From assembly GCA_949744505.1 (NCBI GenBank), contig CATJXY010000030.1:1-35906 (forward strand): a DNA stretch of 35,906 bases, in the 5' to 3' direction. Positions 8,205 to 10,054 of this stretch are shown here, in pieces. A model generated the notes under the pieces. It did not search any database and was not told where the DNA came from. It was given only the letters and a program-made list of their open reading frames with translations. The position numbers were made by a program, and so were the translations under genes. The stretch's first letter is position 1. The number at the start of each line of letters is the position of its first letter. Source of the DNA: an uncultured Erysipelotrichaceae bacterium (GTDB lineage: Bacteria > Bacillota_I > Bacilli_A > Erysipelotrichales > Erysipelotrichaceae).

Positions 8205-8555
8205 ATGAATAGAACGATTGAAGAGAAAAGAAAAAGGGAAAAACGTGTCGTAGAAGAAATGATTCGTCTTACATGTCGCAAGAAACATAAAACAAAGCAT
8301 GGATTATGCGAATCATGCGAAGAATTGCTGAAATATGCTCAAATTCGAAGTGATAAATGTCCTTTTATAGAGACGAAGACATTCTGCTCAAATTGTAACG
8401 TTCATTGTTACAAACCGGAGATGAGGATAAAAATCAAAGAGGTCATGCGGTTTGCCGGACCCCGAATGATTTTGGTCCATCCCTATTTAGCAGTGAGTCA
8501 TTTAATTGAATCAAAAAGAGAAAAGAAAAGGTTGGAATTGGAAAATGAAAGTTAA
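8205..8555 (+). CDS. YgbA-like nitrous oxide-stimulated promoter family protein
   Basis: A 116-aa soluble, basic, Cys-rich protein. It matches the YgbA family (nitrous oxide-stimulated promoter, PF11756) in size and pattern: an N-terminal EKRKREKRVVEEMIRLTCRKKH segment (residues 7-28), LCESCEELLKYA, KCPF, FCSNCNVHCYKPEMR, and the closing VMRFAGPRMILVHP. At least seven Cys in short-spaced pairs suggest a metal or Fe-S site. E. coli ygbA is induced by nitric oxide; its biochemical role is unsettled. The start lies 3 nt after the exporter stop with only a weak ribosome site, so translation is probably coupled. The end overlaps the next gene. I am confident of the family, not of the function. Confidence 0.85.
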   Translation: MNRTIEEKRKREKRVVEEMIRLTCRKKHKTKHGLCESCEELLKYAQIRSDKCPFIETKTFCSNCNVHCYKPEMRIKIKEVMRFAGPRMILVHPYLAVSHLIESKREKKRLELENES

Positions 8556-8931
8556 AAAGATTGTTTTTGTGATTTGTGGATGCATTTGTATTGGATTGGG
8601 ATATATCGGAATATTATTGCCGATTTTACCAACTGTTCCGTTTTTTCTGGCAGCGTTGTTTTTCTTTGCGAATAGTTCGGAACATTTGCATGATTGGTTT
8701 CTCAACACAACAATGTATAAGAAGCATCTAGAATCTTTTGTGCAGAAAAAGGCAATGAAACGATCTTCTAAAGCTATGATTCTCACTATGGTATGTATTG
8801 TTATGGCAATCGGATTTATTATGATGAAAAACTTGTTTGTTCCTCGAATTATTTTAGGAATTGTTTGGTTGGCTCATGTCGTCTATTTTGTGTTTGGAGT
8901 GAAAACTTTGCATGAAGAAACAATTGAGTAA
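8545..8931 (+). CDS. YbaN (DUF454) family inner-membrane protein
   Basis: The start at ATG 8545 is preferred over an upstream in-frame TTG (8506) because it gives the usual YbaN length (128 aa) and begins at the first hydrophobic segment. It overlaps the ygbA-like gene by 11 bp. Features: a first membrane span (residues ~3-35) with the family motif GxxLPILPTVPFFLAALFFF, then HDWFLNTTMYKKHLESF, and two closely spaced hydrophobic helices (about 72-110). This is the DUF454/YbaN pattern. The function is unknown. In other genomes it often sits near heme or respiratory genes, which agrees with the CydDC-like partners here. It ends the operon; no strong terminator follows directly. Confidence 0.85.
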   Translation: MKVKKIVFVICGCICIGLGYIGILLPILPTVPFFLAALFFFANSSEHLHDWFLNTTMYKKHLESFVQKKAMKRSSKAMILTMVCIVMAIGFIMMKNLFVPRIILGIVWLAHVVYFVFGVKTLHEETIE

Positions 8932-8944
8932 AAGATTCTTTTTC

Positions 8945-8974
8945 TTGAAATAAAGGAATTTTATCTAGTATAAT
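8945..8974 (+). promoter_or_regulatory. Strong promoter driving the intergenic RNA
   Basis: TTGAAA (8945-8950), an 18-bp spacer and a perfect TATAAT (8969-8974). The expected start is about 8981, exactly where the folded RNA begins. Confidence 0.75.
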
Positions 8975-8980
8975 AAGAGT

Positions 8981-9195
8981 GAAGAAGATAAGGTTGGAGC
9001 GATTTGGGGAAAAGATGAGTTTTGACATGTACTGGTTTTCCGGAATCTTATCTTATATGCACTGCAGTGTCTTCATTGACTTTTATCAAATCGGGAGGTC
9101 TCTAATTCAAAAGGAGTTATTCATTTTGTATTAGGGATCAGTCTGTTTAAATTTCTGTGAAGTTAACCAAGATGAATAATTCGTCTTGGTTTTTT
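8981..9195 (+). ncRNA. Folded intergenic RNA of unknown family (sRNA or leader)
   Basis: This ~215-nt stretch has no ORF of note but dense base pairing. Helix 1: 8981-8985 with 9070-9074, continuing 8986-8995 with 9044-9053 (10 bp, one G-U) around a small hairpin at 9059-9068 (CACTGCAGTG). Within it, 9008-9013 pairs with 9036-9041. Helix 2: 9097-9106 (GGTCTCTAAT) with 9130-9139 (ATTAGGGATC), continuing as CAAAA/TTTTG around an 11-nt loop. CGATTTG (9000-9006) is also complementary to CAAATCG (9087-9093), which would form a pseudoknot or an alternative fold. A strong terminator ends it. I find no match by eye to 6S, SRP, tmRNA, T-box or the common riboswitches. It could be an independent sRNA or an attenuation leader for the gene at 9218. 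Confidence 0.6.
9165..9195 (+). terminator. Strong terminator or attenuator ahead of the winged-helix gene
   Basis: AACCAAGA (9165-9172) pairs with TCTTGGTT (9184-9191), extended inside by GAAT/ATTC, with a T run to 9195. It lies 22 nt upstream of the ATG at 9218, so either it ends the RNA above or it gates expression of that gene. Confidence 0.88.
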
Positions 9196-9217
9196 CATTT
9201 AACACAGAGAGGATGAG

Positions 9218-10054
9218 ATGATGAAGAATAATAATGAAAAGGCACTGTATAAGCAAGGGTTGGATAACTGTAAAGAGAGATTACCTATTGAAATGATGGG
9301 TGGAAATGAAATTGAGGATAAAATGGAATTGTTTAAATCAGAAGACGATTGTAATTTGATAAGAATTCAAATAAGTAGATGGCATTCTTTTGATAAAAGT
9401 TATTTAATTGAATGTAAAAATATAGAAGGAAATATTTTTTCTGATTTGAAACAAGTTTCGACTTTTTTAAAAAATCATATTGTGATAACGAAGAGATTTT
9501 ATGCCGGAGGGTGTGATTATGTTTACAGCTATCCGATGGAAACAGTATATCAGGCCTTGTATGTTTGTTTGATGCGAAAGGATCTTATCGATCCCAGTCC
9601 CATTCAGGTAGATATATTTCAAAATAGAATGGAATTTTCTTGTAAGACGAATCAACAATTGAACTTGGATATCATTAAAATTTTGAAAAAACAGGGTCTG
9701 ATAATAGATGATAATGAGAGCATAAAATATCTTGAGGCTAACTATAAAAGAGAATTAAATCAGTCAATCAAGATAAATGAAGAAGAACGAGATCAGACCA
9801 TTATACTTGAGAATACATATTATAAGCCGGTGACATTGCATGCTATCAAAAAGCTTCGTATTTCAGCTAAAAAATGTTACGATATGATTTATCATCATCC
9901 GGGTATTCGCTTGACAGAACTTTCAAAATTGCTTGAAAAGCCTTATATTACGGTACAGACTGAAGTCCGTGTTTTAAGAAGAAAACAATTAGTTGAAAGA
10001 CGGGGAACAAGAGAACAGGGAGGGTATTATTGTATTGAAATTGAGATTAAATAA
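9218..10054 (+). CDS. Winged-helix protein related to AlbA/HATPase_c_4 regulators, degenerate
   Basis: A 278-aa protein. The C-terminal ~70 residues form a winged helix: KKCYDMIYHHPGIRLTELSK then LLEKPYITVQTEVRVLRRKQ, ending VERRGTREQGGYYCIE. The middle (about 105-145) reads YSYPMETVYQALYVCLMRKD ... PIQVDIFQNRMEFSC. That matches the shape of the GHKL-like segment of Schlafen/AlbA_2-type regulators (YPxxAlREAlvNAlvHRDY ... I.V.iFdDRiEI), but the key N and H-R-D-Y residues are changed and the N-terminal AlbA_2 domain is absent. So it is probably a DNA-binding protein that has lost ATP binding. The start has GAGAGG 5 nt upstream; ATG 9221 is an alternative. It directly follows the folded RNA. 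The target is unknown. Confidence 0.6.
   Translation: MMKNNNEKALYKQGLDNCKERLPIEMMGGNEIEDKMELFKSEDDCNLIRIQISRWHSFDKSYLIECKNIEGNIFSDLKQVSTFLKNHIVITKRFYAGGCDYVYSYPMETVYQALYVCLMRKDLIDPSPIQVDIFQNRMEFSCKTNQQLNLDIIKILKKQGLIIDDNESIKYLEANYKRELNQSIKINEEERDQTIILENTYYKPVTLHAIKKLRISAKKCYDMIYHHPGIRLTELSKLLEKPYITVQTEVRVLRRKQLVERRGTREQGGYYCIEIEIK

Follow-up and report, generated by a model that had tools for sequence, protein, structure and literature searches.

A putative default-off transcription attenuator upstream of a gene for an apparently truncated, probable winged-helix protein in an uncultured Erysipelotrichaceae bacterium

Known Leader RNAs in the Same Genome

The described RNAs closest to the locus studied here are the T-boxes (RF00230) and the purine and lysine riboswitches (RF00167 and RF00168). 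T-box leaders run from a promoter over ~185 nt to a terminator found 20-28 nt before the gene, an arrangement shared by the leader of the gene that starts at position 9218 (gene 9218) of the window, the whole 35.9-kb stretch of DNA analysed. Purine and lysine riboswitches use loop-based tertiary contacts, as does the pseudoknot proposed below for the same leader.

A control scan covered 953 kb including the window, about half of the genome, with 873 ORFs of at least 90 codons, and collected noncoding stretches of at least 100 nt that close with a terminator in the vicinity of a start codon. The terminator lies 15-30 nt before the start in 11 of the 17 matches, one being the 9218 leader. The ten others comprise seven T-boxes, two riboswitches (purine, L199:4651-4797 in G000:C57; lysine, L203) and the leader of a ToxN type III toxin gene. 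All ten precede genes of known RNA-regulated kinds, leaving the 9218 leader alone without a family. Five T-boxes score above the curated cut-off (L174, L176 (1416), L157, L211 and L202 (9509)). The two others score 85.2 bits (L182:11099-11312, E 3.1e-19, before a class II D/K/N-type synthetase) and 90.3 bits (L206:11650-11859, E 1.5e-20, before PheS) against a gathering score of 93. The ToxN-type toxin of a type III toxin-antitoxin system (L208:15339-15830 in G000:C17, offset 40000) is identified by PF13958 with E 6.6e-43, and the terminator of its leader lies 18 nt before the start.

Two side observations concern the riboswitches. The purine riboswitch L199 precedes an operon encoding an ABC ATPase and two permease-like proteins; judged by eye, this operon resembles polyamine-type importers, which would be an unusual target for this RNA if the annotation holds. 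A THF riboswitch is also found in the genome (L158:16731-16827, 91 bits).

Layout of the Locus

All features described below are on the forward strand. A sigma-70-type promoter, TTGAAA-18-TATAAT, lies at positions 8945-8974, directly after the stop codon (8931) of a DUF454 gene. The consensus scan bore out this element of the initial annotation with 11 of 12 consensus positions; four sites in the window, both strands taken together and this one included, match at least 11 of 12. The position of the promoter leads us to expect a transcript start at ~8981. The leader that follows was described as almost devoid of coding potential, and the codon usage of its short open frame, which ends at 9134 and counts 51 codons from 8979 or 39 from 9015, indeed scores as noncoding. 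The window has no tRNA or tmRNA gene.

The terminator scan placed an intrinsic terminator at 9165-9195, with a 12-bp stem (9165-9191) followed by a T-rich tail. Its fold of -13.6 kcal/mol and base-pair probability of ~1 in the ensemble agree with the strong terminator initially called there. A gap of 26 nt separates the stem from the start codon of the putatively regulated gene (9218-10054), which codes for a 278-aa product. The sequence also shows a likely ribosome-binding stretch upstream of the ATG at 9218, at positions 9203-9214 (around AGAGAGGATG). The consensus scan found no promoter-like site between the terminator and this start codon; gene 9218 therefore depends on readthrough.

Mutually Exclusive Pairings at the 3' End of the Leader

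Positions 9097-9139 are predicted to fold into an 18-bp hairpin of -16.1 kcal/mol (z -5.1), a stability equalled by none of 300 shuffles. The hairpin was previously listed with 15 bp; we propose that it is an anti-antiterminator. The strongest feature of the leader was absent from the initial annotation. Positions 9108-9128, the proposed 5' arm of an antiterminator, pair with 9168-9188 inside the terminator (the 3' arm) at 19 of 21 positions counting G-U, with a duplex energy of -20.1 kcal/mol. This was equalled or beaten by 7 of 2000 local shuffles, restricted to the hairpin region, and by 15 of 1000 shuffles of the whole leader (0.35-1.5%). Formation of the duplex would disrupt the hairpin 9097-9139 as well as the terminator, which gives the duplex the form of an antiterminator. 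Forcing it costs a computed 12.7 kcal/mol, which argues for a default state that is off. The two-state switch suspected earlier thus gains support, from this pairing rather than from those listed at the time.

When the complementarity between upstream sequence and terminator is compared over the 11 leaders, the 9218 leader ranks first (z -2.5); the purine riboswitch reaches -2.0, the lysine riboswitch -1.8, and several T-boxes are near 0. The energy gap of 12.7 kcal/mol compares with 2.5 for the purine leader, 5.7 for the lysine leader and 6.7-15.9 for five T-boxes, values that rest on the best duplex with the terminator and not on a documented antiterminator.

The 5' Domain and a Possible Pseudoknot

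The transcript 8981-9200 folds at -60.1 kcal/mol versus -46.7 kcal/mol for its shuffles (z -3.6). The statement that the leader folds well is correct for the transcript as a whole and not for its 5' part, because the 3' hairpin and the terminator account for the excess stability. Segments 8981-9095 (z +0.4) and 8981-9074 (z -0.4) are at chance level. The junction-like helix reported at 8981-9074 did not stand up to folding: it is only one of at least two competing folds, which pair 8984-8990 with 9068-9074 or 8985-8995 with 9044-9054. We delimit from these alternative helices and from inverted repeat I3 a 5' domain at 8984-9074, a candidate sensor region. Its unremarkable stability is weak evidence against function, since fold z-scores close to zero are common among true leaders; unusual stability is also missing from the purine leader and from several of the T-boxes.

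The complementarity between 9000-9006 and 9087-9093 noted earlier is real. The heptamer CGATTTG at 9000-9006 (inverted repeat I6) is complementary at 7 of 7 positions to 9087-9093, forming a perfect 7-bp duplex of -5.7 kcal/mol. Its partner CAAATCG is carried by the loop (9085-9093) of a weak 7-bp hairpin at 9078-9100 (-3.3 kcal/mol). This hairpin shares positions 9097-9100 with the hairpin 9097-9139, so that the two compete, and folding predicts it in the nascent RNA when the 3' end lies at 9110-9128. By a test picked after the sequence was seen, 0.17% of shuffles have a hairpin in this position together with a 7-nt match to its loop further upstream. The putative pseudoknot would favour antitermination because the loop pairing stabilises hairpin 9078-9100, which keeps hairpin 9097-9139 from forming.

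Searches for Known Families and Relatives

Rfam 15 has no family at gathering in the 35.9-kb window, and matches at E<=10 are limited to eukaryotic miRNA and snoRNA noise; the initial failure to recognise a known family therefore holds. A T-box was rejected because RF00230 gives no match at E<=10 and neither GGTGG nor GGNACC is found in 8975-9217. 6S RNA (RF00013) was rejected as well: the 6S RNA of this genome is encoded on another contig (G000:C34:4523-4690) and the leader gives no match to the family.

Searches of 273 genomes of the family yielded no homologue of the leader, the many matches of ~20-60 nt being what chance would give, and 316 genomes of the order yielded none either. The same holds for the 392 sampled genomes of the phylum, where two ~50-nt matches were restricted to the AT-rich sequence of the promoter. 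Plasmids and phages were searched with the same outcome, and exact pieces of the leader sought in viral contigs returned nothing useful. The genomes searched include no further member of the genus to which the source genome belongs.

Gene 9218 and its Neighbourhood

The product of gene 9218 has no Pfam match at 0.001, and HATPase_c_4 gives no match at E<=5. The later part of the phrog_12156 (helicase) profile aligns to residues 47-157 with E 1.8e-6. The carboxyl terminus shares 29% identity over 114 residues with a 509-aa AlbA_2/HATPase_c_4 protein of another genome (G006), and weak MarR/TrmB matches suggest a winged helix at the C-terminus. The N-terminal AlbA_2 domain present in the G006 relative was not found in the 278-aa product. 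The protein thus looks like a truncated member of the AlbA_2/HATPase_c_4/winged-helix proteins that keeps the winged helix and lacks AlbA_2. Its earlier description as a degenerate regulator is supported, as only the middle and C-terminal parts of such proteins match. Structure prediction from the single sequence gave a pLDDT of 34. No close relative of the gene was found in GTDB contigs, viral contigs, the class sample, plasmids or phages.

The set of genes upstream, an ABC transporter pair followed by YgbA_NO and DUF454 (the latter two at 8205-8931), recurs in the family. The gene after DUF454 differs between relatives, and the leader with gene 9218 therefore occupies a variable position. 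A search for congeners via DUF454 gave nothing above ~60% identity. DUF454 relatives of 50-60% identity belong to Lachnospiraceae, Ruminococcaceae, Treponema and Erysipelotrichaceae records, a scattered distribution that suggests horizontal transfer.

Proposed Attenuation Mechanism

We favour, with a probability of roughly 0.62, the reading that 8981-9195 acts as a default-off transcription attenuator in the 5' leader of gene 9218. The model starts from promoter and terminator sequences that are observed, from mutually exclusive pairings with their computed energies and from a layout common to known leaders. Attenuators are marked by a terminator shortly before the gene, by the lack of another promoter for that gene, by an antiterminator that excludes the terminator and by readthrough that responds to a signal; the sequence and its predicted pairings show the first three, and the fourth is what the model predicts. 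Transcription would start near 8981. By default, the hairpin 9097-9139 would form as the RNA emerges, then the terminator 9165-9191, and RNA polymerase would stop at ~9195, 22 nt before gene 9218. To switch on, the hairpin 9097-9139 would have to be prevented from forming or be opened, upon which 9108-9128 would capture 9168-9188 and the terminator could not form. The likeliest trigger would be a ligand, RNA or protein that stabilises the hairpin 9078-9100 while the loop of this hairpin is paired with 9000-9006. Gating by a signal and the choice of gene 9218 as target are what we infer from this architecture.

Three observations speak for the attenuator reading: the antiterminator pairing, the spacing of 26 nt between terminator and start codon, and the leaders of like layout in the control scan. 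The reading is weakened above all by the failure to find a leader homologue in the family, order, phylum, plasmid and phage collections, by an energy gap that is large compared to those of the purine and lysine leaders, and by a 5' domain that is not unusually stable. Since the target gene is degenerate, the leader may be decaying too. A further step, which we regard as possible but doubtful, is that the 5' domain and the long-range pseudoknot are the sensor of an undescribed class of riboswitch or RNA-sensing element that activates a regulator by antitermination and is confined to a sparsely sampled genus.

Alternative Explanations

The alternative that survives best, though we hold it unlikely, is that gene 9218 is not regulated at all. 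The terminator would simply end the ABC-YgbA-DUF454 operon, the hairpin would be incidental and the gene a decaying, barely expressed import. There is indeed no other terminator between the DUF454 stop and 9165, the gene content after DUF454 is variable, and gene 9218 is truncated relative to its family and was found nowhere else in our searches. However, a near-consensus promoter separates the DUF454 gene from the terminator, the alternative pairings are better than chance would give, and the 278-codon frame is intact and preceded by a ribosome-binding stretch. The control scan also goes against this explanation, as the ten comparable layouts in the sampled genome all precede genes of RNA-regulated kinds.

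Next in rank, and improbable in our view, comes a stand-alone sRNA of ~215 nt that is transcribed from its own promoter to its own terminator; gene 9218 would then lie downstream by chance and be expressed via incomplete termination. The promoter, the stable 3' hairpin and the terminator would make a complete sRNA gene, no relative was found that ties the leader to gene 9218, and the 6S RNA of the same genome is likewise upstream of a gene and ends in a terminator. Yet the gap between terminator and start is 84 nt for 6S, whereas the spacing of 26 nt seen here otherwise marks leaders in this genome. An sRNA would not need the antiterminator complementarity, gene 9218 would be left without a promoter of its own, and the leader is not 6S, which sits elsewhere in the genome. 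The initial annotation had left the choice between an sRNA and an attenuator; the antiterminator pairing, the 26-nt gap and the ten same-genome leaders favour the latter and make the former less likely.

Ribosome-mediated attenuation, in which a ribosome translating the 39-codon frame 9015-9134 would determine whether the antiterminator or the terminator forms, is quite improbable. The frame ends inside the hairpin 9097-9139, a geometry that would let a ribosome open the hairpin, and GGGGA is found just before the ATG at 9015. This is, however, a weak Shine-Dalgarno match, the frame scores -0.13 per codon against -0.03 for the 1st percentile of real 39-codon stretches, and a ribosome at the stop codon would, judging from its footprint size, also sit on part of 9108-9128 and so keep the antiterminator from forming.

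A type III-like RNA-protein toxin-antitoxin pair, with the leader as RNA antitoxin and gene 9218 as toxin, would have the same order of promoter, RNA, terminator and gene as the ToxN locus of this genome, but is very improbable: tandem repeats are absent from the leader (though the ToxN leader region likewise yielded no calls), the 9218 product has no ToxN match and resembles a truncated AlbA_2-family/winged-helix protein, and PADLOC yields only weak CARF-type matches.

Significance

The attenuator would be of a known kind and its sensor, if any, without a family. If confirmed, it would be an RNA switch that has no family and acts on a regulator, and as such a candidate for ligand discovery. 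The analysis further points to an inexpensive screen for orphan switches, which would look for noncoding leaders that lack an Rfam match and whose terminator lies 15-30 nt ahead of a start codon. Such a screen is useful because the layout marked known RNA-regulated kinds of gene in 10 of 10 other cases here, and it may find switches that escape comparative methods when no relatives are available.

Comparison with Known Systems

The 9218 locus shares with ToxIN type III loci the succession of RNA, terminator and gene with a short gap; it differs from them by the absence of repeats in the RNA and by an unrelated protein. 6S RNA has a similar length and, in contrast to the proposed leader, stands alone. 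Gene 9218 is not an aminoacyl-tRNA synthetase, an amino-acid transporter or a biosynthetic gene, which sets its leader apart from the T-boxes. The likeness to the T-boxes, present seven times in the same genome, extends to the default-off state predicted here and to the large computed energy gap. Unlike the purine and lysine riboswitches, the leader has no aptamer match and no relatives were found in our searches; it has in common with them the strong choice between antiterminator and terminator and the same spacing from terminator to gene.
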